This document shows positions 3,626-56,518 of a DNA stretch of 64,000 bases, piece by piece. Origin of the DNA: Fragilaria crotonensis. Lineage: Eukaryota > Bacillariophyta > Fragilariophyceae > Fragilariales > Fragilariaceae. Below the pieces are notes generated by a model. The model saw only the letters and a program-made list of their open reading frames with translations, did no database searches and had not been told where the DNA came from. A program made the translations under genes and the position numbers. Every line of letters starts with the position of its first letter. The first letter of the stretch is position 1. The stretch lies in NCBI GenBank assembly GCA_022925895.1, contig JAKSYS010000219.1:1-64000 (forward strand). The letters run 5' to 3'.

Positions 3626-4689
3626 TCGCACCACCAACCGTACTGCAGTACTGAAGCACTGGAGTACGAACTCTCAAGTAGAAATGTACAGTACTAAGCA
3701 CTGAAATACCGTCAAGTTCGAATCTCTCTCAACAACAAATTTCGTTGCAACACTTTTCGCTTGTCCTGCTCTCTTGTATAGTACTCTGTGCACTGTACTT
3801 CGTGCTTTGCGCTGACTTCCAACTGCAAACTTATGAAAGGCTGAGGAATTGCAAATGCGAGATGTTCAGAGTCAGGAGAAGATAAATGCAAGAGGGTATG
3901 TGAAGGGAAATGGTATCAAAGTCTCTGCTCTCTGCAGGCTGCGCGTGACCTTTTTTCGGCGTTTTTGCTCCGTAGTATTTTTGGGTTGGGTTCGTTTTCG
4001 CTTTTAGTGTATGTCCTACTGACATTCACATCGTCAGGTCATTCATGCTTCTTGTGATAGGATGCTTGCCGTCTGCTTTTTCGATTTCTACGTATGACTA
4101 TGTACAAAATTATACTACACAGTACTGGAGTATCTACCGGTAAATAACACATTACTGTAGTACCACCTTCACATTAGGACCCATACGGATGTAGCAGTAT
4201 CGTTAAACACAGTGTACACTTACTCGTGTACTCCGAGTATTGGAGAGCAAGTACGAGCCCAATGAATCCGCTGAAAAACGTTTACTGTTGCGTCTCGAGA
4301 CAAAGTATGCAGAGTGTGGAAGTCTAAAGAAGGCGTGTACCTGCACTGTGTACGACAGGTTGTGCACGCGTACCGCCCAAACGCGGATCCCAAATCCAAA
4401 GGTAACCCAAAAAGCAACACTCTATGAAGTCCTTTCCCTATAAACATCACATCGAAACAGAGCAGTACAATACCAGGAAACAAACACCAACTTCCTGAGT
4501 CTCAAACCACCAGGCCATACCTTCATAAGGTACTAGAAAGCAAGAAGAAGTTCATGTCGACCCTGGTAACTTACTTACCGTGTACGTTCCTCTCGTAACA
4601 ACATATTATGCTACCTAATATAGAAAGCTGACTCCTTTGATGGCAACGCGCTGAAGTCTTGCTACAAGCGTTAGCGTCGAACGGAAACA
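3626..4689. other. Gene-free intergenic region with GTAC words
   Basis: About 1.06 kb without a supportable gene. It contains GTAC-palindrome words near 3641-3700 and 4120-4150. Short open frames on both strands (for example 4220-4483) show no domain and no protein-like composition. Confidence 0.5.
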
Positions 4690-4856
4690 CAGTTGTTCAA
4701 TAGGGAACTATGTACTCAGATTAAATGTAAATAAAAAATGAAGAAACCCAACTATCACGCAGCGCGTCAAATCAGAAGTAACGCTTGATCTGTCAGAACA
4801 AATCATTCGCACAATGGTGCCAAACAAGGCATTGCCATATTTTCCAATACCACCGT
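4690..4856. repeat. Conserved 3' flank of the TM family, copy 1
   Basis: The stretch beginning with GTTGTTCAATAGGGAACTA is similar to sequence following TM2 (about 9086-9229), TM3 (about 11115-11278) and TM4 (about 15093-15256). All four share the words TTCAAT, GATTA(A/C), the CATGCG/CACGCA region and TGTCAGAA before the TM stop codon. It marks one edge of the repeated unit of the tandem array and probably includes the TM 3' UTR. Confidence 0.6.
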
Positions 4857-5747
4857 TTATACAAGATTGAGCAGTGCGGCCTTCTCGTTGACGGTACCCA
4901 CATCTCTGGAATTCTCGACATCTACTTCATCGACAACAGCGATTGCTACTGCCATTCCAGATTGCTGTTCACCAAGGACCGCATGAACATCATCTCGCAC
5001 CCCTTCAACTTGCGCCAATGGTGACTCCTTCATGACGCGCAGCTTACGGCTCTGGTACACGTCGTCCTCTACATCACTTGTTTGGGAATTGGAAATGCAC
5101 CATGCAACCTCCTCGTCATCGACTGGCTGCATCCAGAACTGAAACCCAAGACCGACAGTCCAAGCAAGTTTATGCCCGCGTTTCAAGACATGTTTCCGAA
5201 TTGTCTCGACAGTGACACCACGCTGTCCATATTCAGCATTTAGACCTTGTGCTAGGGAAGACCACTTTTGTTCGAATTCCGAGAGGATGTTCATATACTG
5301 GTGTTTGAACGATCGGTTGACCGAGATAATGATGCTGGTCAACAACATGGCCAACACAATGGCCCCCATAACAACAAACCCAGACCAGTTAGGTAAATCT
5401 CCGCGTTCATTCTGAAAACTGCACAGAACGATGAGAACAATGAAGGGCATCACAAACACGAACGAGCCAATCATAGCGCTGGTTCTTGTCATTGGTTGGG
5501 CTAGTGTAGCAAGTGCCGCAGTTCGATCCTTCCAAAGTTGACTGGCGCCGTCGACGGCATGCCTCCACGACTCCAACGCAATTCCAGTTCGCGCGAACTC
5601 AGCGGGGACGTGCGTACGACTGTACGTCCAAGGAACGTCACGTTGAAGCGTCGCCTGCAACGATGTTTGCTCTTCTTCCAGATCATTTCCGTAGTTCTCG
5701 TCCGTGGGTTTCAAGTCGAGCTCGATGTGAAAGGTGTGGTGGGCCAT
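4857..5747 (-). CDS. TM1: two-helix membrane protein of a local tandem family
   Basis: 296 aa, starting at the ATG in CACCATGGCC at 5747, a context identical in TM1-TM3 and nearly so in TM4. The reading frame extends 12 codons upstream but without an ATG. Architecture: a polar N-terminal domain (about residues 1-90: H-x-F-x-I-E-L-D-L-K-P-T, then a D-V-P-W-T-Y-S block and V-P-A-E-F-A-R-x-G-I), two adjacent transmembrane helices (about 95-145), a conserved S-V-N-R-S-F-x-H-Q-Y juxtamembrane motif, an amphipathic helix E-F-E-Q-K-W-S-S-L-A, a basic linker, and a beta-rich segment ending M-Q-P-V-D-D-E-E-V-A-W-C. The tail is acidic and variable. I recognise no known domain. It lies head to head with ARM1. 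Membrane location is inferred from hydrophobicity; function unknown. Confidence 0.75.
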   Translation of the reverse strand: MAHHTFHIELDLKPTDENYGNDLEEEQTSLQATLQRDVPWTYSRTHVPAEFARTGIALESWRHAVDGASQLWKDRTAALATLAQPMTRTSAMIGSFVFVMPFIVLIVLCSFQNERGDLPNWSGFVVMGAIVLAMLLTSIIISVNRSFKHQYMNILSEFEQKWSSLAQGLNAEYGQRGVTVETIRKHVLKRGHKLAWTVGLGFQFWMQPVDDEEVAWCISNSQTSDVEDDVYQSRKLRVMKESPLAQVEGVRDDVHAVLGEQQSGMAVAIAVVDEVDVENSRDVGTVNEKAALLNLV

Positions 5748-6210
5748 GGTGAGAGAAAGAGCTTGGATTCGGTACTGTGTCAATGAATCTGAGGTCTGTC
5801 AAAATGTTTTAGTCACCTCTGTGTTCGTGTTCCAAGTTCAGACAGGGATACGCCAGCGCATGACACAAGTTGCCTCTGCATATTTATGATGGTACCCGGT
5901 AGATCTGTGTAAAAAGAGTACTGTGCATTCTTAAGTCGTGTTTCTACTGTACTCGTACTCCAGTACTGGAGTACTCCAGTCTGCACATCGTGACTGGATA
6001 TATATAATACAATCAGCAGCATCTGAACTCTGCGAACACATTCATATATTCTTTCGAGGGGGGTCCACTATTATTTGCCCCTTTTGTCCCATCGGATTAG
6101 CTTTGAAGATTTAGTGTGAAGTTCTAGTAGCCGAGGGTCGAATTTAATCATTGTGGCGTATCGATGTTAACTTGAACTCTCACAAGTCGCATTCGGCTTC
6201 TTTCCACAGA
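5748..6210. promoter_or_regulatory. Shared divergent promoter region of TM1 and ARM1
   Basis: The 463 bp between the two divergent start codons includes a perfect 20-bp palindrome GTACTCCAGTACTGGAGTAC at 5955-5974 and the conserved words CATCGGATTAGCTTTGAAGATTTAGTGTGAAG split across 6091-6122. Matching words lie upstream of TM2 (10150-10501) and, in weaker form, between TM3 and ARM3. Conservation outside coding sequence suggests a bidirectional promoter, but recent duplication alone could also explain it. Confidence 0.5.
5955..5974. repeat. Perfect 20-bp GTAC palindrome
   Basis: GTACTCCAGTACTGGAGTAC reads identically on both strands. It is the clearest example of the palindrome family scattered through intergenic DNA in this window. 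Confidence 0.8.
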
Positions 6211-8275
6211 ATGTTTATTCACACGAATTCGAATGTTGCTGTGAGAAAGGACGAGGATGTGGGGACCAAGACCGTTCCTACCGCGAAGGTATGTTTCGTC
6301 AATTATTTCTTGGCGTCTGGTGCATGATTCTTGCGATATCGATATGCGGGTAGTCATTCGTTGTGTTGTTCTCTACTCAAATCATCTCTTGAAGTTGTAA
6401 TCTAACAATTGTATCTCTATCTTCTGACGCAGACCTCCCCTACTGAGCCTGAAAGTCTAGAAGATATTCCCAAACTCATCGAGATTATGCTGAACGAGGA
6501 GGGTCAGATGAGCGCTGACGCCATCAAGCGCATTTATGAACTTTGCAATGTTAGAAATGCGCAAAACCGTGTCCCTCTGGTATGTAGTGGAAAGTACAAT
6601 GTACTTGTTCCCCTTGCCAAGTCTTTGCTTAGGGCTTATCCCGATAAACATCAACTGGCATGTGCCTCGTTGAACAAACGTTCCAATCCTACCAAGATCA
6701 AGAAGGTCACGGCAGTTGTGCCTGAATGCAAGGTCAACAATCGGACTATGGACCCTGGAGGTCGACGTCATTTGGCTTGTCTCGCTTTGAACAATCTGTC
6801 CATCCCAACCGAGAACAAGTGGGTCATGGCACTCGGGCCTGAATCCGAGACCATCATCGGGGCTCTGTGCGAGGTTATTGCCCAGGATAATGAGGAGTCG
6901 TATTTGTGCTGCGTCTGCCTCATGAATCTCTCCTTCTTGGAGGCCTGTTCCACTACGATTTTGCAACATTCTCCACTCGCCGCGGGCAAGAATGCCAAGA
7001 CCCTTCTTGACAACGAAGCCTCCCTCCTCCGCATTCTTGAGAAACTCCTCAACAATTTTTTATCTGCATCAAAGTCTGAACCATCCAAGTCCAAAGCTGC
7101 ACAGTGGGCTTGTGGATTGATCAAGAACCTTGCCAAGAGCAGGGCGAATGCTACTCTCATTGGGAAAACAGATATTCCAAAGTGTGTCACTGAAATTATC
7201 CGGGTTGCTCTCGCCCATCGTGGTCTTCGATTGGGCTTCTAATTTGATCAAGAAGAATGCGAGGTCTGACGAGAATGCAAATCTGATAAGAGGGATTGAC
7301 TCGCAGAAACGCATGACTGGAGCAACCCTTGCCGCAACTGCTCCTCTTTTAAACATAAAGTCCAACTCCATCGAAGACTTCTCGCTATTTGTTATCCTCC
7401 ACCTTTCTCAGTGGCCAGAGACACACGAAGCGCTTCACAAGGCTGGCGCACTCGAAGTCATCCAACCGCTCATGTCGCAAGGAAATCTTCAAGGCTTGAA
7501 GGCCACCATGGCTTGTGCGTTTCTTGGTGCCGAGTGGTCCGCCTTCCCGGGAGGTGGGATTCCCGCATCCGAAGCAGTCGCAGAGCTCATGGCAAATATT
7601 GTGGAGAAAAAGGACAAGGCCGATGAATACGCACACACCGTCTTTAATCTCTCCACTGCTACCAAGGCATACTGCGCCCTATCCCGAGCCGCCTTGAAGG
7701 CTGACAAGGGCAGTGGAGAGTTCACAAAGGTTCTCGCTGTTCCTTCCGCTCTTGCCTTGCATCTTCGAATCATTTCCGACCTGATTGTTGCCGCCATGGA
7801 AGGTGCCAATACGGGAGAGAAGAACAATGCTCCCGACTCCGTGTCCGCTGAACCCGCACACGACCCAATCGTTCCTGACATTGTTCGTGAGATCATGGAC
7901 CAGCATCAGTCATCGACATTCGGTCACGATCGTGGTACCGATTGTACAGATGATGCAGTTTCAGCAGCGGAATATGCCATTGGGACGATTCACGCCCTTC
8001 TACCTGGGATCCTCCATGGCGTGGAAACTCCTGGTCGCAACGTCCTTCCTACCAAAAAGGCATGGAGTGAGATCAGTTCCATGCTTCTCACCTACGTTGA
8101 AATCTGTAACCCTTGTTCCAGCACCAAGGCGCAGGCGAAAAGTGTTGCTGAGAAAATATCAGGGGCTGCTTCGATTGGAAATTCGTGTCCCATCCTCGAG
8201 ACATCCCACTATCTTTGGACTCAATACCGAAGGTGCGAGGGACAACCATTGGATCAATTCAATTTCACACATTAG
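6211..8275 (+). pseudogene. ARM1: ARM/HEAT-like repeat protein, frameshifted copy
   Basis: Exon 1 is 6211-6288 and the intron is 6289-6432 (GTATGT...GACGCAG, phase 0). Exon 2 runs from 6433 in one frame to a stop at 7242, while homology to ARM3 continues from about 7210 to 8275 in the next frame. Against ARM3 the break is a 44-nt deletion near 7204-7212. The first part carries repeated helical units of the type L-A-C-x-A-L-x-N-L-S-I-P-T-E-N, like ARM repeats. The second part contains a conserved block (L-S-P-I-V-V-F-D-W-A-S-N) and ends near S-H-Y-L-W-T-Q-Y-R-R-C, the same C-terminus as ARM3. The C-terminus is shorter than in ARM3 because of a further small deletion. It is either a recent pseudogene or gives a truncated 300-residue ARM protein (exon 1 plus 6433-7242). 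Function unknown. Confidence 0.7.
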
Positions 8276-8529
8276 TAAGACATTCGACTCGTATGAGTAA
8301 AACTGCACGTCTTTCTTTATTTCTTGTCACGTGTTCGTGTGCGCCAGTTCTCGTCGTTTGCGTAGTACTCGATAGTGTGGAGGAGTAGATCGAAATTCTC
8401 TCCACTCACTACAATGCCGACAGGGAGAGCAAGGAACAATACTTTTTTGGCGTTGTGACTTCTGCATAGACGTCACAACACGGGGAATACGAAGGAATTA
8501 TCATGTCGCGAGCATATGAGACTGCATAA
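8276..8529. other. Spacer between ARM1 and the ARM2 fragment
   Basis: No gene is seen. This is the downstream flank of ARM1 running directly into the exon-1-like segment of ARM2. No TM copy lies between them, so a unit has been partly lost here. Confidence 0.45.
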
Positions 8530-9085
8530 GCTGTGAGAAAGGACGAGGATGCGGGATCCAAGACCGTTCCTGCCGCAAATGTAGGTTACGTCAATGCTTT
8601 CTTGGTGTCTGGTGCATGATTCTCGCGGTATCGAAGTCATGGTAGTGATTCAATAGTTTTCCAACGAGAAAAGAAATCGTCTCTTTTATGTTCCAGTCTT
8701 ATAATGGTAACTCAATCTTCCGACGCAGACCTCCCCTACTGAACCAGATAGTCTACATGACATTCTCAAATTTTCGTGGAGGATCAGACAAGCGCTGCCG
8801 CCACCATGCGCATTTACGAACTTTGTAATGTTAAAAATTCGCAGAACCATATCCCTCGAGTTTGCAGCGGAAACTGCGATGTACTTGTTCCTCTCATGAA
8901 GTGCTTGATGGGGACAATGAAGATCGACATCAACTGGCTTGTCTCGATCGTCAACTAATCTTCAACTTTTCCATCGCAACCGAGAACAAGCCGGCAGTAA
9001 GGCATGTCCAACACAAGGCTATTCGGGGGCTTTCCTTGCTTTGAACAGTCTTGCCATCCCAAGCGAGAACAAGGAAATACGCATT
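8530..9085 (+). pseudogene. ARM2: truncated ARM-family pseudogene
   Basis: An exon-1-like segment begins near 8530. The donor reads GTAGGT instead of the GTATGT of ARM1 and ARM3. The acceptor CTTCCGACGCAG and exon 2 start (8729) are preserved. Translation matches the N-terminus of ARM1/ARM3 (R-I-Y-E-L-C-N-V, V-C-S-G-N, D-V-L-V-P-L) but has at least two frame-breaking indels (about 8770 and 8905). It ends at a partial L-N-S-L-A-I-P-S-E-N-K repeat, where sequence jumps into the 3' flank of TM2. It lacks the C-terminal three quarters of the gene. Confidence 0.7.
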
Positions 9086-9229
9086 CGGATTAAGTGTAAA
9101 TTAACATTTATGAAACCAAACTACCATTCATGCGCAGCAAATTGGAAGTCAAGTTTGACCTGTCAGAGGGTGAATCATTCGCACACTGGTACCCAAGTAG
9201 ACCTTTGGCATGTCATCCAATACCACGGT

Positions 9230-10105
9230 TTATACAAGATGGAGCAGTGCGGCTTTCTCGTTGACTGAACCCATGTCGCTGGAATTCTCGACATCTACTT
9301 CATCGACAACAGCGATTGCCACTGCCACTCCAGATTGCTGATCACCAAGGACCACGTCAACTCCATCGTGTGACAATGGTGTCTCCTTGATGACGCGCAA
9401 CTTACGGTCCTGGTAGGCGTCGTCCTCCACGTCGCTAGTTTGGGAATTGGAAATGCACCAGGCAACCTCCTCGTCATCGACTGGCTGCATCCTGAACTGA
9501 AACCCAAGACCGACAGTCCAAGCAAATCTACGCTGGCGTTTCAAAACATGTTTCCGAACCGTCTCGACTTTAACACCTCGCAGTTCGTATTCTGCGTTGA
9601 GATCTTGTGCTAGGGACGACCACTTTTGTTCGAATTCAGAGAGGACATTCGTATACTGGTGAATGAAAGTCCGATTCACTGAGACAACTACCGCGATCGA
9701 AACAATGAACGACACAATGGCCCCAATGATAACAAACCCAGACCATTCTGGTAAATATCCGGATCTATCCATAGAACTGATCAGAATGGTGAGGGTAATG
9801 AAAGGAATCGAAACCACGAACACAGCAAGCGTTGTGCAGATTCTTTTCGCTGCTTGGGCTGGTGTCGCAAGTGCCACAGTTCGATCCTTCCAAAGTTGAC
9901 TGGCGCTGTCGACTGCTCGCCTCCACAACTCCAATCCAATTCCATTTCGCGCGAACTCCTTAGGGACGTGCATACGACTGTACGTCCACGGGACGTCACG
10001 TTGAAGTATCTCCTGCAACAATGTCTGCTCTTCTTCCAGATCATTTCCGTAGTTCTCGTCCGTGGGTTTCAAGTCAAGCTCGATGTGGAAGGTGTGGTGG
10101 GCCAT
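9230..10105 (-). CDS. TM2: two-helix membrane protein of the tandem family
   Basis: 291 aa from ATG 10105 (CACCATGGCC). It is collinear with TM1 throughout: N-terminal F-H-I-E-L-D-L-K-P-T, D-V-P-W-T-Y-S, two transmembrane helices (about residues 95-145), S-V-N-R-T-F-I-H-Q-Y, and Q-P-V-D-D-E-E-V-A-W-C. The transmembrane helices are the most divergent part, while the flanking soluble motifs are almost unchanged. That pattern suggests selection or gene conversion on the soluble regions. It is convergent with the ARM2 fragment and has an ARM-type upstream flank remnant behind its start (10420-10501). No known domain is recognised. Confidence 0.75.
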   Translation of the reverse strand: MAHHTFHIELDLKPTDENYGNDLEEEQTLLQEILQRDVPWTYSRMHVPKEFARNGIGLELWRRAVDSASQLWKDRTVALATPAQAAKRICTTLAVFVVSIPFITLTILISSMDRSGYLPEWSGFVIIGAIVSFIVSIAVVVSVNRTFIHQYTNVLSEFEQKWSSLAQDLNAEYELRGVKVETVRKHVLKRQRRFAWTVGLGFQFRMQPVDDEEVAWCISNSQTSDVEDDAYQDRKLRVIKETPLSHDGVDVVLGDQQSGVAVAIAVVDEVDVENSSDMGSVNEKAALLHLV

Positions 10106-10501
10106 GGTGAGAGAAAGAGTTGGGATTCGGTTCTGTGTCAATGAATCTGAGGTCTGTCAAACTGTTTTATTTGTTCATCTCTGAATTCGTGTTCCAAGTT
10201 CAGACAGGGATACGCCAGCGCATGACACAAGTTGCCTCTGCAGAATTATGATGCTACCCGGTAGATCTGTGTAAAAAGAGTACTGGAGTACTGTACATTC
10301 TTTTTTAGTCGTGTTTCTACTGTACTCGTACTCCAGTACTCCAGTCTGAGTGGCACTTCGCGCCTTGATGTGATAACTGGATCAGCATCTGAACAAATAT
10401 TTTTTCGACAGGGAAACGCCGTTTCACATGTAGGTGTTGCCCTTGTGTCTCATCGGATTAGCTTTGAATATTTAGTGTGAAGTCTCTAGCCGAGGGTCGA
10501 A
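10106..10501. promoter_or_regulatory. Former divergent promoter region upstream of TM2
   Basis: This matches the TM1-ARM1 spacer, including GTACTCGTACTCCAGTACTC near 10323-10342 and the CTCATCGGATTAGCTTTGAA word near 10448-10467. The ARM gene expected to start on its right is missing; unrelated sequence begins after about 10502. Confidence 0.5.
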
Positions 10502-10530
10502 TGGGCACCTTCCATTCCGACTAATATGGC

Positions 10531-10866
10531 ATCAAATTTGATGGCGACGCCATCCTTATTAGCGGCACAAGATCCACTCCCAGCAGCAACCTCTGGACCA
10601 TCAACCTAGGTAACCAACAACTACCAAAACACACCGCCAACCCCATCCTCCTCACCCACAGTCCCGCCACCCTTCAAATGCCTTCCTCCGGCCGAGCACC
10701 ACACTTTTTTCCTCTGTCTCTCTTGATACGGCCTCCCATGTGCGACGCCACCCCGTTCCCTCCATCGCTATGTTCAAAGAGGGCAGCTACCTTGCCCAAC
10801 AGTGTGCCGACGTGCGCTCCACCAAAATCTCCACTTCAGTGAGATGCTTTTTGTCAACGATAGCGA
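10531..10866 (+). pseudogene. Relic of a retroelement polyprotein
   Basis: The frame starting at 10531 reads I-K-F-D-G-D-A-I-L-I-S-G-T-R-S-T, then L-W-T-I-N-L. After a frameshift near 10713 it continues with V-R-R-H-P-V-P-S-I-A-M-F-K-E-G and R-S-T-K. This order (a short strand-rich segment, the W-T-I-N segment, then R-x-H-P-x-x-S-I-A-M) is what I associate with the region between protease and integrase in LTR-retroelement polyproteins of diatoms. It is short and broken, and it sits where an ARM gene would be expected. Identification is from memory of family patterns and needs a search. Confidence 0.45.
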
Positions 10867-10959
10867 CAGCAACTTAATCCATAGTGCGGCCATGAAATTA
10901 TAACCAAGCCATCGGCATTCTTGCAGCATACAAACACACGGTCACGCTCTGCCGCAACT

Positions 10960-11010
10960 CAAAAGACTTGACAACGAAGCTTCTTTGTTACTGCTTTTTT
11001 CATGTCCAGC
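10960..11010 (+). pseudogene. Small ARM-family relic between TM2 and TM3
   Basis: GACTTGACAACGAAGCTTC near 10968-10986 resembles the ARM1/ARM3 segment TTGACAACGAAGCCTCCCTC (7008-7027). The surrounding 100 bp no longer aligns well. It suggests that a third ARM copy once stood between TM2 and TM3 and was replaced by retroelement sequence. Confidence 0.35.
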
Positions 11011-11278
11011 CGAGATGGTGATTTCTGTCGTGTGGTGCCTTCAGCGGAAGGCACCTCCGTACGAAGAAAACCATTTTATTGCCGGTGCGTCACATGTTGT
11101 GAATACACAACACAACTGTTCAATAGCGAGCTATCCAGTCGGATTAAGTGTAAATTAAAGTTAGTGAAACTCAAATAATAACCATGCGCGTCAAAGCGGG
11201 CATAAAGTTGACCTCTCAGAATGAATCAATTCCATTGAAACCGAAGACGTACTTTGGGATGTCATCCAGTTCCATGGT

Positions 11279-12166
11279 TTAAACGAGATTGAGCAGCGCG
11301 GCTTTCTCGTTGACTCTGCACACATCGCTGGCACTCTCAACATCAGCTTCATCGACAACAGCAATTGCCACTGCCATTCCAGATTGCTCACCCAGGACCA
11401 CGTCGAGCCCATTGCTCATCCCTTCAACTTGCGACAATGGTGACTCCTTGATGACGCGCAGCTTACGTCTCTGGTACACGACGTCCCGCTCGCCGCTAGT
11501 TTGGGAATTGGACATGCACCAGGCAATCTCCTCATCATCAACCGGCTGCATCCTGAACTGAAAACCAAGACCAACAGTCCAACCAAGTCTACGCTCACGT
11601 TTCAATACAGTCGTCCGAATTGTCTTGACAGTAACACCACGCTGGGCGTATTCAGCATTTAGATGTTGTGCTAGGGAAGACCACTTTTGTTCGAATTCCG
11701 AGAGGACGTCCATATACCGGTGAATGAAAGTCCGATTCACTGAGACACGTATCATGAATAAAGCAATACACAACGCAATCGCCAAAATCAAGAAATACCA
11801 TACCCAGTGCGGTGGATATCCATTTTCATCCGAAAAATGAATCAGGATGAAAAGAGTAATGAAAAAAATGCAAGGCATGAAGGTGTCAAGCGTTAAGACG
11901 TTTCTCTTCACTGGTTGGGCCAGTCCAGCAAGCGCCGCAGTTCGATCCTTCCAAAGTTGACTGGCGCTCTCGACGGCACGCCCCCACGACTCCAATCCAA
12001 TTCCGTTTCGCGCGAACTCAGCCGGCACATGCATAGAACTGTACGTCCATGGGACGTCACGTTGAAGCGTCGCCTGCAATGATGTCTGCTCTTCTTCGAG
12101 ATCATTTCCATAACCCTCGTCCGTTGGTTTCAAGTCAAGCTCGATGTGAAAGGTGTGGTGGGCCAT
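11279..12166 (-). CDS. TM3: two-helix membrane protein of the tandem family
   Basis: 295 aa from ATG 12166. It has the same motif order as TM1: acidic N-terminal domain with D-V-P-W-T-Y-S-S-M-H-V-P-A-E-F-A-R, helices at about residues 95-145 (here aromatic-rich and very different from TM1), S-V-N-R-T-F-I-H-R-Y, E-F-E-Q-K-W-S-S-L-A, and Q-P-V-D-D-E-E-I-A-W-C. It lies head to head with the intact ARM3, giving the only pair in the array with both partners intact. Function unknown. Confidence 0.75.
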   Translation of the reverse strand: MAHHTFHIELDLKPTDEGYGNDLEEEQTSLQATLQRDVPWTYSSMHVPAEFARNGIGLESWGRAVESASQLWKDRTAALAGLAQPVKRNVLTLDTFMPCIFFITLFILIHFSDENGYPPHWVWYFLILAIALCIALFMIRVSVNRTFIHRYMDVLSEFEQKWSSLAQHLNAEYAQRGVTVKTIRTTVLKRERRLGWTVGLGFQFRMQPVDDEEIAWCMSNSQTSGERDVVYQRRKLRVIKESPLSQVEGMSNGLDVVLGEQSGMAVAIAVVDEADVESASDVCRVNEKAALLNLV

Positions 12167-12912
12167 GGTGAGCGAAAGATTCTGTTCGGACTTGACTTGT
12201 GTCAAGCTTTTTCCTTGAAGTTGACGGCCGGACCAAGTCCAAGAATGAACAGCTCATGCTCAGTGCTCAGACAGGGATAGGCCAGCTCGTGATAAAATTT
12301 AGCTGCGTACATGTGTACCATCTACGTATTATTACTTAGTCAGAAATCGTACTCCGAGTACTCCGATAATCTCTTAATCGAGTAATAGAGTGTATGAAGT
12401 ATGGATACTTGTTATTCGCCGCTCGCCGCTTTTAGTATGAATTTAATTAGGGCATCCTGAACGTTTGCATATGTCATGGGGCGTTACTCAATTGGCACGT
12501 CTTATCGACAGGCGTTCAGGGATTGAATGATGCTTTTTGTCAAACATACCCAGACAATTGAAGTACAGAAGTAGTATCTATGATCGTATGTAATCCGAGT
12601 ATACTCCGAGTACGATGCACAGTACCTACCGGTATCGGCACTGTCGGCTCTCGGAATATTCCTCCAGAAATGGTGTGCAAGTCCCGATCATGCCGAACAT
12701 GCATTACTTATTTCTTCCCCCCCCCCGATGCTGATCAACGATTAGTGATAACGGGTTCACATGTAGGTGTTTGTTTGGCTTGTGTCGTCCACGAAAAATG
12801 GTCCGCAGAAAGTTTCCTTGATTTCGTTTGATCCCAGTCTCGGATAAGCTTTGAAGGGTTAAAGTGAAGTCGCTTGCGGCGGAGGGTCGCAATACTTGAG
12901 CAGCCACTCACA
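12167..12912. promoter_or_regulatory. Divergent spacer between TM3 and ARM3
   Basis: About 750 bp, longer than the TM1-ARM1 spacer. It has GTAC words at 12347-12372 and 12598-12640, a C-run at 12719-12726, and a recognisable AAGCTTTGAAGGGTTAAAGTGAAG word near 12846-12869, split like the one at 6101-6122. No separate gene is supported. Confidence 0.4.
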
Positions 12913-15072
12913 ATGCGCATGCCTGCTTTCCACAGAATGCTTAATCGCGCGAACACGAATCTGATGGTGAGAAAGGACGAGAATGCCGGAATCACGACCT
13001 TTCCTGCAGCAAACGTATGTTTCTTCAATCACTTCTTGGCGCCTGGTGCGCATGATTCCTTACGATATTGAACTGCGGGCTGCGATTCATTGTGTTGATC
13101 TCAACTCGAGTATAGTTTCACAAAGTGAAAAGAAATAATCTCGTCTTGAATTGTGATCTAACGATGATCTCTCTATCTTCCGACGCAGAACTCGCCTTAC
13201 GAGCCGGAAAGCCTAGACGATATGCCCAAACTCATCGAGACTATGCTGTATGAGGAGGGCGAAAAGAGCGCTGCCGCCGCCAAGCGCATTTCCGAACTTT
13301 GCAATGATAAAAACGCGGAGAATCGTGTCCCTCTGGTATGCAGCGGACAGTACGATGTACTTGTTCCCCTCGCCAAGTGTTTGATTAGGGACAATGCAGA
13401 TGAACATCAACTGGCTTGGTTCGCGCGTCATATATTCAACAATTATCCCATCCCAACCGAGAGGAGGTCACTCAGGCATGAAGCCAACGCCACCCTTTGG
13501 GCTTGCGTCGCTTTGACCAACCTATCCATCCCAACCGAGAATAGGTGGGTCATGGCACTCGGGCCTGAATCCGAGATCATCATTGGGACTCTCTCCAAGC
13601 TTATTGCTCAGGATAAGGAGGAGTCATACTTTGGCTGCATGTGCCTCAATAATCTTTCTCTTCTCGAGGCCTGTTCCACCACAATTATGCAACATTCACC
13701 GGTATCCAAGGGCCAGAAGTCCAAGGCCCCTCTTGATAACGAAGCCTCCCTCCTCCGCATTCTTGAGAAAATTCTCAACAATTTTATATCTCCATTGAAG
13801 TCTACCCCTTTTGAGTCCAAAGCTGCACAGTGGGCTTGTGGATTGATCAAGAACCTCGCCAAGAATGGGGAGAATGCTGCTCTCATTGGGAGAACAGATA
13901 TTCCAAAGTGTGTCACTGAAATTATCCGGGCTGCCACGGCTCCTCCTGTCAACTGGACTACCAACATTGTCAAGCAACTCTCGCCCATCGTGGTCTTCGA
14001 TTGGGCTTCTAATTTGATAAAGAAGAATGCGAGGTCTGACGAGAATGCAAATCTTATAAGAGGGATTGACTCGCAGAAACGCATGACTGGAACAACCCTT
14101 GCCGCAACTGCTCCTCTTTTCAACATAAAGTCCAACTCCATCGAAGACTTCTCGCTATTTGTTATCCTCCACCTTTCTCAATGGCCAGAGACACACGAAG
14201 CGCTTCACAAGGCTGGCGCACTCGAAGTCATCCAACCGCTCATGTTATGTGGAAAGCTCCAAGGCTTGAAGGCCACCATGGCTTGTGCGTTTCTGGGCGC
14301 CGAGTGGTCCGCCTTTCCGGGAGGTGGGATTCCCGCATCCGAAGCAGTCGCAGAGCTCATGGTAAATATTGTGGAGAAGAAGGACAAGGCCGATGAATAC
14401 GTACACACCGTGTTTAAGCTCTCCACTGCTACCAAGGCATACTGTGCTCTATCCCGAGCCGCCTGGAAGGCTGACAAGGGCAGTGGAGAGTTCACAAAAG
14501 TTCTCGCTGTTCCTTCCGCTCTTGCCTTGCATCTTCGAATCATTTCTGACCTGATTGCTTCTGCCATGGAAGATGCCGATGCTGGCGGTACGAAGAACAA
14601 TGCGCCCGACTCTGTGTCCGCTGAACCCGCACACGACCCAATCGTTCCTGATATTGTTCGTGAGATCATGGACCAGCATCAGTCATCTACGTTCGGTCAC
14701 GATCGTGGTACCAAGTGTACAGATGATGCAGTGTCATCAGCGGAATATGCCATTGGGACGATCCACGCGCTCCTACCTGGGATTCTCCACGTTGTGGAAC
14801 CTCCTGGGTGCAATGCCCTTCCGACCAAAAAGGCATGGAGTGAAATCAGTACCATGCTTCTCACCTACGTCAAAATCTGTAATCCTTGTTCCAGCGCCCA
14901 AGTGCAGGCGAAGGATGCTGCAGAAAAAATCGCAGGAGCTGCTGCCATTGGAAAATCGTACCCCATCCTCGAGACATCCCACTATCTTTGGACTCAATAC
15001 CGAAGGTGCGACGGACAACCATTGGATCAATTCAACTTGACACATTTCGACCATATTAGTGACAATGTGTAA
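12913..15072 (+). CDS. ARM3: intact ARM/HEAT-like repeat protein, two exons
   Basis: Exon 1 is 12913-13014, the intron 13015-13188 (GTATGT...GACGCAG, phase 0) and exon 2 13189-15072, giving about 661 aa; an in-frame ATG at 12874 would add 13 residues. A short basic N-terminus is followed by alpha-helical repeats resembling ARM/HEAT units, for example A-C-V-A-L-T-N-L-S-I-P-T-E-N-R and C-M-C-L-N-N-L-S-L-L-E. The central block has W-A-C-G-L-I-K-N-L-A. The C-terminal half is alpha-helical with H-A-L-L-P-G-I-L-H and ends in a conserved S-H-Y-L-W-T-Q-Y-R-R-C segment. No transmembrane helix or catalytic motif is visible, so a cytosolic scaffold is the simplest reading (inference). It is head to head with TM3 and convergent with TM4. 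Confidence 0.75.
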
Positions 15073-15256
15073 CAGTAGCGACAAAACGACGCATAGTTGT
15101 TCAAATGGAAACTATGTTCTGAGATTACGTGTATATATTAACATGAATCAAACCCAACAATAACTCATGCGTGTCAAAGTGAAAAGCTAAGTTAGGATTG
15201 TCAGAATGAAACATTCCAACACTGGTACCGAAAAGATGGTCTAATAGTACCACGGT

Positions 15257-16120
15257 TTACACAAGATTGAGCAGTGCAGCCTTCTCGTTGACTGTACCCA
15301 CATCGCTGGAATTCTCAACATCTACTTCATCGACAACAGCGATTGCCACTGCCATTCCAGATTGCTGTTCACCAAGGACCACGTGAACACCATTGCTCAT
15401 CCCTTCAACTTGCGACAATTGGGACTCCTTGATGACGCGCAACATGCGGCTCTGGTAAACGTCGTCCTCTACATCACTAGTTTGGGAATTGGAAATGCAC
15501 CATGCAACCTCATCGTCATCGACCGGCTGTATCCTGAACTGAAAGCCAAGACCGATAGTCCAAGCAAGTTTATGCCCGCGTTTCAAAACATGTTTCCGAA
15601 TTGTCTTCACAGAAACACCACGCTGTCCGTATTCAGCATTAAGATCTCGTGCTAGGAAAGACCACTTTTGTTCGAACTCCGCGAGGACATTCATATACTG
15701 GTGAATGAAGGACCGATTCACTGAGACAAGCATTATGCTCAACACAATGATCCCAAAGATGATAAACCACACCCCGATATCAGGATCTCCGTTTGAATTC
15801 AAGAACAAAAGCGCAATGACAATGAGCAACACAGTGGTAAACCGATTACGGGATTGTTTCGTCGCGGTATGGGAGACTGCAGCAAGCGCCGCAGTTCGCT
15901 CCTTCCAGAGTTGACTGGCGCCTTCGACGGCTCGGCTCCACGACTCCAGCCCAATTCCAGTTCGCGCGAACTCAGCCGGCACGTGCATGGAACTGTACGT
16001 CCATGGGACGTCACGTTGAAGCGTCGCCTGCAATGATGTCTGCTCTTCTTCCAGATCACTTCCCAATGTCTTGTCCGTAGGTTTCAAGTCAAGCTCGATG
16101 CGGAAGGTGTGGTTGGCCAT
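15257..16120 (-). CDS. TM4: two-helix membrane protein of the tandem family
   Basis: 287 aa from ATG 16120. N-terminal F-R-I-E-L-D-L-K-P-T, the D-V-P-W-T-Y-S-S-M-H-V-P-A-E-F-A-R block, two helices (shorter loop than TM1), S-V-N-R-S-F-I-H-Q-Y, and Q-P-V-D-D-D-E-V-A-W-C are all present. It closes the array: no ARM copy follows upstream of its start, where GTAC-rich DNA leads into an unrelated gene. Confidence 0.75.
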   Translation of the reverse strand: MANHTFRIELDLKPTDKTLGSDLEEEQTSLQATLQRDVPWTYSSMHVPAEFARTGIGLESWSRAVEGASQLWKERTAALAAVSHTATKQSRNRFTTVLLIVIALLFLNSNGDPDIGVWFIIFGIIVLSIMLVSVNRSFIHQYMNVLAEFEQKWSFLARDLNAEYGQRGVSVKTIRKHVLKRGHKLAWTIGLGFQFRIQPVDDDEVAWCISNSQTSDVEDDVYQSRMLRVIKESQLSQVEGMSNGVHVVLGEQQSGMAVAIAVVDEVDVENSSDVGTVNEKAALLNLV

Positions 16121-16765
16121 GGTGAGAGAAAGAGTTTGGATACTGTTCGGTTTTGTGTGCAAAACGACTAAGTTCTGTCAATTTGTTATCCTTGAAGTTG
16201 AAAATACAGGTGCGACAGTGATGATGTACTCTGTTGGTGTCTATATATGAGAATATGAGAGCCAGGAGCACACGCTCACATACCGAGGAGGCAGATAGGC
16301 CATCGCGTGATAAATGATAATAAACGATAGCCAATTTAAGAATCATCATTTGTATTCTCATATGTATATATTCATATCATACGTACGCCGGTACTAAAAA
16401 AAACCTCGGAGTACCAGGTACGAGTACAGTACAGCGAATACGCCCTATACTGCTGGTTGCTGGTACTGGTACATACTTCGAAACTGCGGTAGAAATGTAC
16501 TCCGGAATCCGGAATAATACGGTACTGCGTAATGGGTAATGGGGCTGGACAATTCGCACAACAAAGCAGCAGACACTGGAGTCTTGAGTCTGTACGTCTG
16601 TACATATACAGACACGTATGTAACATTACAATCGGTGAGTACGTCACTTTTAGTCCGAAGATAGTCAACTCTGAGAGGTATCCACACTGAAGCCACAGAC
16701 GCAGAAACATCTATCAACTATAGCCAACACTCGGCACCGCGCTGTGTTTTGTTGAAAGCAGTGAC
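16121..16765. other. Intergenic region, GTAC-rich
   Basis: No gene is supported. Dense GTAC words occur at 16381-16515 and 16590-16615, in the upstream region of the NAD(P)-binding gene and of TM4, which are divergent. Confidence 0.5.
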
Positions 16766-17782
16766 ATGACGAGGACGATGAATCATCTCAATGTTCGATT
16801 AGTCGTATTATGGCTAGCCTGCATCTCTATTCCATGCTTGGGATGGAATCCTTCAACTATTGGTCGTACCAGCAAGGTCTCAAGTGAAACAAAAATGCAA
16901 ATGAGCTCAGAAACCGGATTCGTCAATAGCGACGCCAACAACAGCAAAGGCGGAGTCCTGCAAGTCACGGTCGTCGGTGGCACTGGATTTGTCGGATCCC
17001 GAGTCTGTCAAATCCTCACAGCACAGGGAGTATCGGTTCGCAGCATTTCCAAGTCGGGCACAGTTCCAAAATGGTGTCGAGATGAGGAATGGTCCTCCCA
17101 AGTGACATGGTCTGCCGTTGATCTCTTGGACGCGACGCCGTCGGCCATTGATGAGGCCATGGGAAACCAACCGGATGCTGTCGTCTCGTGTGTCGGAGTG
17201 ATTGGCACGGATCCCGAAGTTTTGAAGAAGGGCAATGGCGATGCCAACGTGGCTGCCTTTGAAAGTGCCAAACGCTTGGGAGCGAAACGCGCGGCGTTCA
17301 TCTCGGTTTCGTCCGAACTTCTGGCGTGTCGCGAAGACTTTTTGCCAGAATTTATGGGATCCTACTTTGATGGAAAGGAAGCGGCAGAAAAAGCCGCTGC
17401 GGATGCCGTTGGACCAGATTCTCTCACCATCCTCAAGCCAACATTTGTGTACGGTGGCAACTCCTTTGGAATCAACCCACCACGAGTCACATCGGACTAC
17501 GGAGCCATTATTGATCAATTGCTATCCCTGCCTCCAATCCAAATCTGTGCTGATTTGTTACCGGGCATGGTCAAGGTTGCCTTGCGACCACCCGTGTCGG
17601 TGGATACCCTTGCCGGTGCCTGTGCCGCAGCCGCCACGGGGACGCTTGTGCCGCCGGACGGTGGTACTGGTCCACTCACTCTCGATGGCACCAAGGCAAT
17701 CAATGCCGTGATGAAAGTACCACCGTCCACCGGACTCACTGACGCGATTGTGAAGGAATTCAATTGGATCATGGACACGTAA
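16766..17782 (+). CDS. NAD(P)-binding Rossmann-fold protein (atypical SDR/NDUFA9-like), probably targeted
   Basis: 338 aa without introns. The N-terminus carries a hydrophobic signal-like stretch (about residues 11-27, ending C-L-G-W) followed by a Ser/Thr-rich stretch, consistent with a signal or bipartite plastid presequence. The Rossmann dinucleotide motif V-V-G-G-T-G-F-V-G follows at about residues 69-77, then D-A-V-V-S-C-V-G-V-I-G and A-F-I-S-V-S-S. The Y-x-x-x-K pair appears as Y-F-D-G-K near residue 200, and a K-P-T-F-V-Y-G-G motif is typical of atypical (extended) SDRs such as NDUFA9-like and plastid epimerase-like proteins. Substrate unknown. The organelle location is an inference from the presequence. 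Confidence 0.82.
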   Translation: MTRTMNHLNVRLVVLWLACISIPCLGWNPSTIGRTSKVSSETKMQMSSETGFVNSDANNSKGGVLQVTVVGGTGFVGSRVCQILTAQGVSVRSISKSGTVPKWCRDEEWSSQVTWSAVDLLDATPSAIDEAMGNQPDAVVSCVGVIGTDPEVLKKGNGDANVAAFESAKRLGAKRAAFISVSSELLACREDFLPEFMGSYFDGKEAAEKAAADAVGPDSLTILKPTFVYGGNSFGINPPRVTSDYGAIIDQLLSLPPIQICADLLPGMVKVALRPPVSVDTLAGACAAAATGTLVPPDGGTGPLTLDGTKAINAVMKVPPSTGLTDAIVKEFNWIMDT

Positions 17783-18091
17783 GGTAAGGTGGCAACATGG
17801 ATGGGAGCGAGACTCAAGGAACAAGCCATGTCCAAGTAGTAGTGCGACCTTCATCGGCACGCGGCACTCTTCATCGCTAGCTTTATTTCTTTTCCGGATA
17901 GAGAACACGAAACAAGACGAGGATAGATCACGTGCATCGGCGTTGCTACTTCCTGCTAGAACTCTGTAATTATCTATTTCTCTAGAGTAGAGGCATGGTA
18001 GTTCGCGTTACTCGAAACCGCAATAAGTGCAACGTGCAGACCTGATTAGGTCGCCATTCATTTCACTTGCTGCTTGCCACTCATTGGCAAC
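17783..18091. other. Convergent spacer
   Basis: About 310 bp between the reductase-like gene and TM5. No gene or repeat is recognised. Confidence 0.5.
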
Positions 18092-18889
18092 TTAAACGAT
18101 GCAAACATTCAGGGCATCAACTTCGCTGATCACCACAGTTTCCTTTGGTGGCGATTGTACCACACTGTTATTGGAACGATCAAAGTCCTCCTCGTCTGCT
18201 GGATTCATCCTGCAGATAAACTCAAGCTCAAAGGTATCGTATGGTGACCTAAACATAGAATATCGAAACAGGTCAAAAGCATATGCTTCGTACTTGGCGT
18301 CCAGGGCCTCTAGTTGGTGTCGGCAATCATCGACAAGCTGACTCGTTGCATCCCGATCCTCGGACATGATTCCTTCAAGTAAGGCTTCGAGATAACGGGT
18401 CAAAGCCTTAAAAGCCAATATAAACCCCCCAGACCATATCAATGAATATGGCAATCCCGTATAAGCATATATGACAATAGCCGTACACATAACAAGAAGA
18501 ACACAAGACAAGTAGGCAAAGAAAAAGATGAAAAAGATCCAGAGTCTCCATTCCCTCCGACTCCACAGAACTTGTCGCTTCTTCCAAAATCCATCACTGA
18601 CAATGTCATATTCTTGTTGCCAATGTGATAAAGGCATTCCTGCTCGCGCGGGCGCTTCTGGCACGGTATTACGACTGTAAGACAAACGCATCGAAGGAGG
18701 AAAAAACAAGGTAGGCCCACACAACCAAATGATTTTCCAAAGAACCGTTGTTGGTTTTGTAAGTTCCAAGGTCACCACAACGTGGTACCTCATTGTTGTT
18801 TGGTTCATACTGTCGCTTATCGTGAAAAGAGTGATGAGCGTCGTGAAAGTAAGAATCGGTGCGTTTCCGCAACTTGTATGATCATTCAT
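18092..18889 (-). CDS. TM5: divergent paralogue of the TM family
   Basis: 265 aa from ATG 18889. The ATG at 18793 (M-R-Y-H-V-V-V-T-L-E-L) would align with the starts of TM1-TM4 and gives 233 aa. Shared features are N-terminal beta-like L-E-L-T-K-P-T, the block V-P-E-A-P-A-R-A-G-M-P-L-S-H-W, F-W-K-K-R, two adjacent transmembrane helices, a conserved helix after them, and M-N-P-A-D-E-E-D near the C-terminus (compare M-Q-P-V-D-D-E-E). Overall identity to TM1-TM4 is low, so it is an older duplicate than the array. It has no ARM partner beside it. Confidence 0.6.
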   Translation of the reverse strand: MNDHTSCGNAPILTFTTLITLFTISDSMNQTTMRYHVVVTLELTKPTTVLWKIIWLCGPTLFFPPSMRLSYSRNTVPEAPARAGMPLSHWQQEYDIVSDGFWKKRQVLWSRREWRLWIFFIFFFAYLSCVLLVMCTAIVIYAYTGLPYSLIWSGGFILAFKALTRYLEALLEGIMSEDRDATSQLVDDCRHQLEALDAKYEAYAFDLFRYSMFRSPYDTFELEFICRMNPADEEDFDRSNNSVVQSPPKETVVISEVDALNVCIV

Positions 18890-19359
18890 CTTACATGTAT
18901 GACATAGAAAGACATGCAGATGACATATTTAGTTGAGCATATGTTCTTGTATCGTAATTTATATATCATGCATGACGACACACAACTGGATGGCTACGAT
19001 AATAACATTAAAACATACATTTGAGAATATACAACTGTTGCAAATCCTGGATGATGTGTACAGGCAACACTGTGGTACGATAGTACCGTTGGACACTGAA
19101 AGAGGTGACATGCATATCATTCCAGAGCATGGCAACTTTGATCATATGAATTTGATACTTCTTCCTTCTTTGATATATGAATCCTTCGTTATACCTTATA
19201 CCAGATTCATTCAGCGTCTGTACGCCGAACGAGAAAGGGATAGACCATGGGTTTATGGACGTCGATACATCCAGTGTGTACCAGGTACATCGTAAATCAT
19301 AATCTAATTCTAGAGGAGAGGCACGGCTTTTTTATTTCAATTGTAGTTTGCCATTTGCA
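18890..19359. other. Stretch between TM5 and the TM6 relic
   Basis: It contains one open frame (18933-19295, +, 120 codons) of unremarkable composition, with no recognised domain. I do not call it a gene. Confidence 0.35.
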
Positions 19360-19655
19360 ACTCATTGACTCCATACTTGTCGCAAACATCCACGGCATAA
19401 ACTTCACAAACAACTGCACTTTGTTTCACTTCCTCTTGGAGCCTTTGTAATTTCATAGGATGGCGATTGTGGCAAACTTTGATTAGAAGGATCAACGTCC
19501 TCCTCCTCGGCTGGGAGCATCCAGCCAACAAATTCAAGCACAAAGGAATTGTATGTTGAAGTACATGACGTTCTTCAAAACATGTCAGTAGCACATTTTC
19601 GGTGTTGCCCAGGGCCTGTCATTCTTGGTGATGGCAATCATCGATAAGCTGTTAT
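19360..19655 (-). pseudogene. TM6: 3'-terminal relic of a TM5-like gene
   Basis: The plus-strand sequence around 19381-19655 aligns by eye with the TM5 3' half (about 18101-18350): shared words are GCAAACAT, GGTGGCGATTGT/GGATGGCGATTGT, AAGTCCTCCTCGTC/AACGTCCTCCTCCTC, CCAGGGCCT and GCAATCATCGA. Frameshifts break the reading frame, and the 5' half is missing before the copia LTR at 19734. Confidence 0.55.
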
Positions 19656-19733
19656 ATAGGGAAAGAAAAAAGTTCGAGGTGCCAATAGCGCCCGGACAAG
19701 CAGGGTATGGATTGATTTGAAACCAGATCCCTG

Positions 19734-20058
19734 TGTTGGAAGTATGCAATCTGACCCAATCGCTACCGTCGACTCGAGTAACGGTACGGTGGCAAGGGCG
19801 AATGGAGAAACAGAAATCCATTCACAGACTCACGTCACATGGGCTGACGTAGTAAAAAGAAAGCGCGTCACAAGAGCAATCAAACCAAACCATATGAGTT
19901 TCAAGAGTCGCATTCTCTTGAAATAATCCAGTTAGTAAGCATCAGGGTTTGATTGACTCTTCACGCTTGTTATCAATAGTTTGAACACGCTGCGTTCTTC
20001 ACCATCGCGTTGGGTTTAGGGCCTGTATCGCGTCGCAGTAGAGTTTCACTCTACAACA
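19734..20058 (+). repeat. 5' LTR of the copia element
   Basis: 325 bp, TG...CA ends. It differs from the 3' LTR by scattered substitutions and a 1-bp indel near 20000. It contains an open frame (to the stop at 19924-19926) that repeats the C-terminal tail of pol found in the 3' LTR. Confidence 0.9.
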
Positions 20059-20439: not shown

Positions 20440-21651
20440 ATGAGTAGCTCCATCATTGGTTCCACTGTGACAACCGGCACTGACGCATCCGGGCGTGGGA
20501 GAGGACAGGAAGGATCCTCCCGCAGCGGATCCGGAGGCCGAGGCCGAAATGGAGGACGGGGAGGACGAAACAACCGCCCCAACAGGACGAGGTCCAACCC
20601 CACCGGAACGAGAAGTGGACGAGGGTCTGTTTTAAGGGCAACACCGAAGGAATGAACGGACACGTGTTCGAGTGCTATTTTGAGCAAGGCGACAAGCGCC
20701 AATACGCTCGCACTGTTGAGGCTCTCGAGGGATATGCAAAGAAGAATCTAAAGTTCTCTGAAGACTTTGCCTCCTTGTTTGCTTTTGAGGCATCGGAACC
20801 CGCCATTGAGAAGCCGTCGGACCTTGAACCCGGATACTCTACCACGGACGAAATGATCTGGAAAGAGGAAATCAAGGCGTACGTAAGCCGACTGGGAGTA
20901 CTCAGAGGAAACCTGGCTGCAATATTCGCGGTCGCCCTGGGACAATGCAGTGAGGCTATGAAGGCCAAGCTCAAGTCATTGAAGGAGTTCGAAGCTCGCA
21001 GCAAAGAATGACTGTCACTGGCTCCTCAAGAACATCCTCTCCATAACTCTTCAATTCGACCAGAAGCGAAACGGGTACCTCGCCATCATGGACGCCCACC
21101 AAAACTTCTTAACTTGCAAGCAGACTCAGGAGCAGACGACGGAGGAATACCTCGAGCACTTGACTTTGTGGGCTGACACCATCGAGTACCACGGTGGCAC
21201 TTTTGTGGAGAACTATCATCTCGCCGGGACCCACAACGCGGACGGCACTCCTAGGACCGAGGACGAACGAAGGAGCGCGGCCAGAGATGAAACGCTTGCC
21301 ATGGCTCTCATCAGGGGTGCAGACCCTTCGCGTTTCGGCACCCTCATTGCCGAGTTATCCAACCAATTTGCCCGCGGACGAAACGAGTACCCGACTGATT
21401 TGAACTCAGCGTACAGCCTGCTCGTGAACTATCGCACGCCTACAAACACGAGGCCCAGGAACAGCACCGGAAACGACAACGCTAACAGTCAGCGAACAAG
21501 TCAGACCTCCCCGGCGGCCGAAGAAAGCGCAATGACATTCGCCCAACAGAGCACTCCGGCGGCCGGAAGCCAGGGAGGCCATAACAGCGCCCAGTCATCG
21601 ACGGACCCCGACCGTAACCCCAGCTCCAAACTCCTCCGCCGTCTCAGTTAA
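20440..21651 (+). pseudogene. gag region of the copia element, frameshifted
   Basis: Gag-like sequence lies in three overlapping frames: a Gly/Arg-rich basic N-terminus (20440-20655), a helical capsid-like part (20652-21011) and a further helical part with a Gln/Asn/Ser-rich tail (21088-21651). Breaks fall near 20630 (T-run, TGTTTTAAGG) and 21005. The order and length suit a copia Gag; no zinc knuckle is seen. Confidence 0.65.
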
Positions 21652-21667
21652 CACCGGCACTACGCTC

Positions 21668-50531: not shown

Positions 50532-51428
50532 TGATAGACTTCCAGTATCGCCCTACATATTTTTACATCTATCCCGATCCCTAACTGACGCCCGTGTGCA
50601 CAGTAAAACGTTACATCCGTGCTCCAGTAACCAGTGCGACACTGCACGACTGGAATCAAAACTCTCGTCGATTCAAATCATGTTCATCTCATCCCATGAG
50701 CATGAACACTCATTTTCAAACGAGACTCAACGCCTCGTATACGGACGACCACACCGCGACACGAAACGACGTCTCCGCGAAACGAGGAGTGTTCCTTATT
50801 GTTCCAAAGGAACACTCCCTTCATTCAGACCTCTCATCTGTTGCCCCTCCTCACTCTTCTCACAATTGTCGAAATAATTCATTTTTAGTGCCACTTACCT
50901 TTTCTGCACATACTGTGAATATCTGCACAATCATGAATGAAATTGACCATGACGAATTTTTACCGCCGGTCGTCAAATTGTCAACCTCACCATACTGTAC
51001 ATATTTCAGTAGTCAGTACGACGGTACTCACTATTACGACAGCACACAACACGGCAATCAGTACAGCAGTACTTTTTGCACATCACTTCCTCTGCCCGGC
51101 CATAGTCCGTGCACGTCTGAGTCTATCGTTACCGTACATAACGATAAACTATTAGACAGTGCCCACTATGACCAAAGCGATATTATTACTAGTCAGTCCC
51201 TCGCACATTTATGTAGCGATAGACCGACAGATAGTATACGTATCGTTGTCTGTAGCGGTAGACAGCATTGTATTGCTGTACCGTTTATAGACACACTAAG
51301 CAGTAGTCAGTGTCGTACTAGACACTTACCTACTGGGGGCGTACCCCGTAACGGTTACGTCCTGGTTCTTAACCCGAACCTTACGCCGACCTGCGCGTCG
51401 ACAGGTTCCGTTAACCCGAACCATATCA
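50532..51428 (+). repeat. 5' LTR of the gag-only element
   Basis: TG...CA ends. Nearly identical to the 3' LTR: single-base length differences lie in the first 80 bp and few substitutions elsewhere, indicating a recent insertion. Contains a continuous open frame from 50594 that continues through the primer binding site into gag. Confidence 0.92.
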
Positions 51429-55625: not shown

Positions 55626-56518
55626 TGATAGACTTCCAGTATCGCCCTACATATTTTACATCTATCGATCCTAACTGTCGCCCGTGTGCACAGTAAAACG
55701 TTACATCCGTGCTCCAGTAACCAGTGCGACACTGCACGACTGGAATCAAAACTCTCGTCGATTCAAATCATGTTCATCTCATCCCATGAGCATGAACACT
55801 CATTTTCAAACGAGACTCAACGCCTCGTATACGGACGACCACACCGCGACACGAAACGACGTCTCCGAGAAACGAGGAGTGTTCCTCATTGTTCCAAAGG
55901 AACACTCCCTTCATTCAGACCTCTCATCTGTTGCACCTCCTCACTCTTCTCACAATTGTCGAAATAATTCATTTTTAGTGCCACTTACCTTTTCTGCACA
56001 TACTGTGAATATCTGCACAATCATGAATGAAATTGACCATGACGAATTTTTACCGCCGGTCGTCAAATTGTCAACCTCACCATACTGTACATATTTCAGT
56101 AGTCAGTACGACGGTACTCACTATTACGACAGCACACAACACGGCAATCAGTACAGCAGTACTTTTTGCACATCACTTCCTCTGCCCGGCCATAGTCCGT
56201 GCACGTCTGAGTCTATCGTTACCGTACATAACGATAAACTATTAGACAGTGCCCACTATGACCAAAGCGATATTATTACTAGTCAGTCCCTCGCACATTT
56301 ATGTAGCGATAGACCGACAGATAGTATACGTATCGTTGTCTGTAGCGGTAGACAGCATTGTATTGCTGTACCGTTTATAGACACACTAAGCAGTAGTCAG
56401 TGTCGTACTAGACACTTACCTACTGGGGGCGTACCCCGTAACGGTTACGTCCTGGTTCTTAACCCGAACCTTACGCCGACCTGCGCGTCGACAGGTTCCG
56501 TTAACCCGAACCATATCA
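55626..56518 (+). repeat. 3' LTR of the gag-only element
   Basis: 893 bp, TG...CA, with the same long open frame as the 5' LTR (here starting at 55684). Followed by TGTAC. Confidence 0.92.

Follow-up and report, generated by a model that had tools for sequence, protein, structure and literature searches.

Tandem duplicates are numerous in the diatoms Seminavis robusta and Synedra acus, and those of S. robusta are less constrained than its dispersed duplicates, as one study reports (PMC7335047). The array that we describe here, from Fragilaria crotonensis, resembles these arrays in its tandem duplicates, but the tandem families named in that study are mostly annotated (PMC7335047), whereas the unit repeated here consists of two unrelated, divergent and unannotated genes, one for a putative two-helix membrane protein (TM) and one for a protein labelled ARM for its likeness to armadillo-repeat proteins. 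Bidirectional gene pairs have start sites less than 1 kb apart, and here, too, the genes are divergent, with 463 and 770 bp between start codons in units 1 and 3; unlike such pairs, the arrangement is not kept among the paralogues found. With armadillo-repeat proteins the ARM protein shares an all-helical prediction of low confidence and, through a relative at locus C149, profile matches below the cut-off; it differs from them in that both the intact array copy (ARM3) and a relative at locus C765 score far below the cut-off, and comparison with solved structures (PDB) gave no match. Among the matches listed in the diatom literature on armadillo, transmembrane and tandem families, positive selection and divergent pairs, the array is not named.

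The window, that is, the whole stretch of 64,000 nucleotides analysed (contig JAKSYS010000219.1, positions 1 to 64,000), has a GC content of 47.0%. Self-comparison of positions 4000-20000 returned 13 repeat pairs (E 0 for seven) and resolved 4672-16187 into a set of long direct repeats that span TM, spacer and ARM in register. These repeats and the four intact TM open reading frames (ORFs) confirm that the tandem TM/ARM array proposed in a preliminary description is real; its limits, placed there at 4690..16120, have to be extended, as the repeat starts near 4672 and a fifth TM-family member and a fragment lie beyond them. The features are as follows:

4672..4856, minus strand: TM 3' flank repeat behind TM1, with copies at 9073-9229, 11109-11278 and 15076-15256 (self-comparison)
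4857..5747, minus strand: TM1, intact ORF of 296 aa with two predicted membrane helices (ORF list, hydropathy)
5748..6210, no strand: spacer of unit 1, 463 bp from the TM1 ATG to the ARM1 ATG
6211..8275, plus strand: ARM1, exon 1 at 6211-6288, intron at 6289-6432, then the main exon; frame shifted
8530..9073, plus strand: ARM2, N-terminal remnant with stops
9230..10105, minus strand: TM2, intact ORF of 291 aa
10106..10502, no strand: TM2 spacer, up to a break-point in the ARM leader, with no ARM coding sequence beyond
10503..11108, no strand: segment occupying the site of the missing ARM, one genome copy, no ARM match
11279..12166, minus strand: TM3, intact ORF of 295 aa
12167..12936, no strand: spacer of unit 3, 770 bp, with only short blocks in common with unit 1
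12937..15072, plus strand: ARM3, exon 1 at 12937-13014, intron at 13015-13188, exon 2 at 13189-15072
15257..16120, minus strand: TM4, intact ORF of 287 aa, convergent with ARM3
18092..18889, minus strand: TM5, divergent TM-family member, start codon uncertain
19449..19651, minus strand: partial additional TM-family copy, 72% alike to part of TM5

The resulting order is TM1-ARM1-ARM2-TM2-(leader)-TM3-ARM3-TM4, with the TM genes on the minus strand and the ARM genes on the plus strand. The alternation described earlier is therefore imperfect, since ARM1 and ARM2 are neighbours and no TM trace was found between them (8276-8529). TM and ARM are divergent, as had been stated, with starts that lie back to back rather than facing each other. 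The TM 3' flanks repeat, again in agreement with the preliminary description; the ARM 3'-flank repeat that it added was not seen past 8273/15046 in the self-comparison of 4000-20000. TM4 and an Epimerase-family gene (16766-17782) are divergently oriented, and no ARM trace was found near TM5. The in-register repeats and the spacers support the original proposal of whole-unit duplication with subsequent loss of single members; the layout agrees with a divergent TM/ARM unit that was duplicated in tandem and later lost members. Because ARM1 adjoins ARM2 with no TM between them, at least five ancestral units, or one additional ARM-only duplication, would be needed. Elsewhere in the window, two weak ARM-like matches of equal score (51146-51298 and 56236-56388, E 0.29) are separated by 5,090 bases, a possible sign of another duplication, and retrotransposon-like ORFs occupy the plus strand at 20652-24433, where a 916-aa frame matches RVT_2 weakly (20.4 bits, cut-off 31.6).

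Conservation of the spacer, claimed for the array as a whole, holds nearly throughout for units 1 and 2 (79% alike over 421 columns) and is confined to blocks of 34, 50 and 116 nt for units 1 and 3. These short blocks lie on the TM side and on the ARM side, with an unconserved middle between units 1 and 3. The TM2 unit ceases to resemble the TM1 unit at 10502/6143, inside the ARM leader, and the segment that follows (10503-11108) gave no ARM match and a single copy in the genome search, so that the fourth ARM trace is non-coding. Accordingly, three of the four ARM traces listed in the preliminary description stand (ARM3, ARM1 and ARM2) and the fourth is reduced to a leader. We dropped the idea that 10503-11108 is a decayed retroelement in view of its single genome copy and its weak matches elsewhere in the window (best E 0.022 or more for DNA and 0.14 or more for protein).

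The exon structure of the ARM genes was deduced from sequence alone. ARM3 is intact (653 aa, no internal stops, main exon open for 616 aa), and like ARM1 it starts with a short exon followed by an intron whose position is the same in both and, by eye, also in the C765 relative. ARM1 is frame shifted by a 44-bp deletion relative to ARM3 at about 7208, and ARM2 loses its similarity near 9073, at the start of the TM2 3' flank. ARM3 (window 13960-14130), and in large part ARM1, has an additional stretch of about 57 aa that the C765 relative lacks and that looks, by eye, like a duplicated repeat. Divergence between ARM1 and ARM3 is uneven: dS drops from 0.39 in the 5' part to 0.20 in the 3' part, with values of 0.05-0.17 in the three leading 60-codon windows of the main block and the 0.05 next to the deletion. 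DNA identity is 0.54-0.89 before 7181, 0.89-0.98 at 7181-7933 and 0.86-0.90 after, and the raised identity at 7181-7933 suggests gene conversion between ARM1 and ARM3. The dN/dS values of this pair (0.47 and 0.24 for the 5' and 3' parts) show a gene that was or is constrained, and this constraint, with the intact ARM3, argues that ARM is not mere junk.

TM1-4 are intact, their proteins are 66-75% identical in pairwise comparison, and each has two hydrophobic segments, as the preliminary description of four copies of a two-helix membrane protein had it. Both segments have a mean hydropathy above 1.6 in each protein (the first segment of TM4 barely, at 1.62), giving all four array members two hydrophobic helices of membrane-spanning length. 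In the structure model of TM1 the hairpin is the best supported part, with helices at pLDDT 80-87 over residues 91-140 and a mean pLDDT of 51. No Pfam model was matched above its cut-off by any of 8 TM-family members, the best match being DUF7472 in TM2 (21.2 bits vs 27). Comparison with solved structures gave six matches at E 0.28-0.50, which we took as chance, and a fold search with the TM model, a poor one, gave 630 matches at E <= 10 and none at E <= 0.001. Mean pLDDT values of 51 and 42 make the TM and ARM models unsuitable for fold matching. Pattern matches to TM in viral contigs (91) and in contigs of other genomes (100) were in no case confirmed by profile search. Array TM pairs have dS of 0.30-0.46 and an overall dN/dS of 0.40-0.53; outside the hairpin, 17 of 18 regional dN/dS values lie at 0.14-0.42 and one at 0.55.

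The ARM protein is harder to place. ARM3 gave nothing above the Pfam cut-offs (best E 0.17; ARM_ARMC5 E 0.97), and the C765 relative stayed far below (E 0.0035, 17.2 bits vs a cut-off of 79.9), so neither matches an ARM profile above its curated cut-off; Pfam Arm (PF00514) itself has 14 matches in the genome and none in the window. The relative at C149, found with the C765 query (E 6.7e-7; 28% identical over query positions 43-379), matches ARM_ARMC5 (PF24768) at E 2e-7 and ARM_PUB (PF25598) at E 4.8e-7, both below the cut-off. The ARM label thus depends on a single linking homologue, C149, itself below the cut-off. The earlier statement that neither protein belongs to a known family holds at Pfam cut-offs. 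The ARM model is all helical at low confidence (mean pLDDT 41.7), and 35 pattern matches in viral contigs yielded no relative confirmed by profile search. The C765 relative ends in CIIL, which ARM3 lacks and which we take to resemble a prenylation box; no convincing first exon beginning with a myristoylation signal turned up in the C765 gene.

We then compared these genes with their relatives in the F. crotonensis genome (62,107,879 bases, 881 contigs). The searches were six-frame and scored the best candidates only, so family members may have been missed. Three open TM paralogues lie in tandem at C48:17260-21336, and ARM relatives lie at C765:81233-82741, C116:75960-76529, C712 and C149. To examine the neighbourhoods, we searched every open stretch of 25 codons or more with the profiles, speed filters switched off. 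No ARM match was present near any of the three C48 paralogues (C48:8000-26900), and no significant TM match near any of the four outside ARM loci within the stretches read (C765:65500-93900 in three overlapping stretches, C116:71000-80900, C712:9000-18900 and C149:43000-52900). Beyond the window and C48, the TM profile scored best (E 2.8) just behind the C765 ARM gene and next best (E 3.4) in C712; neither match is significant and both were taken as chance. An ARM coding sequence stands in divergent position at 2 of 8 open TM-family ORFs (TM1 and TM3), with a non-coding leader at TM2; TM2 and TM4 persist without one, and an intact ARM is missing from that position in 3 of the 4 array TM genes. 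Adjacency of the two families is thus not conserved in the stretches read at C48, TM5, C765, C116, C712 or C149, and as far as this genome shows, TM-ARM pairing is a property of the array only. A separate search recorded, as fits a diatom, 19 silicon-transporter matches in the genome, 18 of them over the cut-off, and among 14 control genomes one with a match and none over it; three silicon-transporter domains lie in one 1456 aa open frame at C97:29749-33762 and two in a 1008-aa frame at C771:21664-24330.

The hairpin stands apart from the rest of the TM protein. In all nine within-cluster pairs (six in the array, three at C48) its amino-acid identity is 0.24-0.47, vs 0.60-0.90 elsewhere, and nonsynonymous change is higher in the hairpin than in the flanks (p <= 1.4e-10). 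Synonymous change is also raised in seven of the nine pairs (p 0.02 to 2.7e-8) and not different in two (TM1/TM2, p 0.56; TM2/TM3, p 0.86), so part of the hairpin contrast may be due to conversion of the flanks or to misalignment. In the array, hairpin dN/dS ranges from 0.73 to 1.44; three of the six pairs lie above 1 (1.44, 1.16 and 1.22, an excess over 1 that consists of point estimates) and the remaining three at 0.73-0.76. At C48, where pairs have dS of 0.18-0.56 and an overall dN/dS of 0.50-0.69, indicating weaker constraint than in the array, the hairpin ratio is below 1 in all three (0.87/1.69, 0.39/0.40 and 0.77/2.67). We simulated neutral change in TM1-3, which are alike in hairpin length, leaving out TM4. 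Residue change in the hairpin equalled the neutral expectation (p 0.24-0.63), and the second hydrophobic segment was kept better than under neutrality in all six directed comparisons (p 0.000-0.014), which are not independent. Overall hairpin hydropathy exceeded the neutral expectation in three of the six (p <= 0.05), and polar residues were fewer in two (p <= 0.01). We read the hairpin as a putative membrane anchor, constrained in hydrophobicity and unconstrained in its residues; diversifying selection on it is possible.

Together, these results are probably best explained by birth and death of a tandem family derived from a duplicated divergent pair, in which TM was retained and ARM, mostly a passenger, lost most of its copies to decay. 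Within one diatom lineage, a divergent pair (TM minus, ARM plus) would have gone through several tandem duplications, followed by birth and death of the copies, with selection maintaining the TM copies (4 of 4 intact). The TM protein may be anchored in the membrane through its two-helix hairpin, with the soluble N- and C-terminal parts on one side and working jointly as an adaptor or scaffold; the hairpin, free to change or diversifying while it stays hydrophobic, might direct the paralogues to distinct membranes or lipid environments. ARM would act alone, as a soluble binding protein built of helical repeats. Against a passenger role for ARM is the retention of ARM coding sequence in divergent position at TM1 and TM3, and a single ARM3 might act in trans for every TM copy. 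This last possibility belongs to a rival account along the lines of the functional pairing advanced in the preliminary description, a true two-component system: TM would recruit ARM to the membrane, the two would be co-expressed from a shared bidirectional promoter and the one intact ARM3 would now serve every TM copy. The divergent arrangement with its short ATG-to-ATG spacers, the blocks shared on both sides of these spacers, the intact ARM3 and the constraint on ARM1/ARM3 all speak for it; we nevertheless consider it unlikely, as no intact ARM stands in divergent position at three of the four array TM genes, the middle of the spacer is unconserved between units 1 and 3, and the family members outside the array (TM5 and the three C48 paralogues on one side, the four outside ARM relatives on the other) have no significant match to the partner family in the stretches read. 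A functional pair is possible, with the evidence within this genome pointing against it, and since the families lie apart elsewhere, TM and ARM are probably not an obligate working pair.

The loss of ARM1 assumed under birth and death would be only apparent if about 7200-7362 were spliced out, placing the 44-bp deletion inside an intron. The C765 relative, which has no counterpart of the 57-aa stretch, the low dN/dS of the ARM1 3' part and a GT that by eye follows the last shared codon in ARM1 agree with such splicing, which we still regard as very improbable, given that the stretch is open in ARM3, is nearly identical in the two genes and by eye looks like a duplicated repeat, and that ARM3 lacks this GT. 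A different role for the TM copies would follow if they formed a recognition or conflict family with membrane-borne specificity (for instance self-recognition or parasite response) whose hairpin is under diversifying selection, the array being its arsenal. The low hairpin identity recurs in every pair of two clusters, hydrophobicity is retained and half of the array pairs have point estimates above 1, but the other half and all C48 pairs lie below 1, synonymous change is mostly raised as well, and residue change at the neutral rate is what an anchor without residue-level constraint would give; we think there is little chance that this account is correct. Even less probable is a diatom membrane-recognition family in which the hairpin diversifies under selection, the soluble parts are homogenised and ARM is a local downstream binder.

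On the reading that we prefer, birth and death after duplication of a divergent pair, the array documents clearly how the two genes of one duplicated unit can survive unequally. Described with it is a family of membrane proteins that no Pfam model covers and in which, in each of two separate clusters, the hairpin evolves far more quickly than the remaining sequence; that this hairpin is so much more variable in both and still hydrophobic was previously unreported. Should this variation be under selection, it would suggest that specificity resides within the membrane; if it is not, the array would reflect routine turnover of lineage-specific genes.
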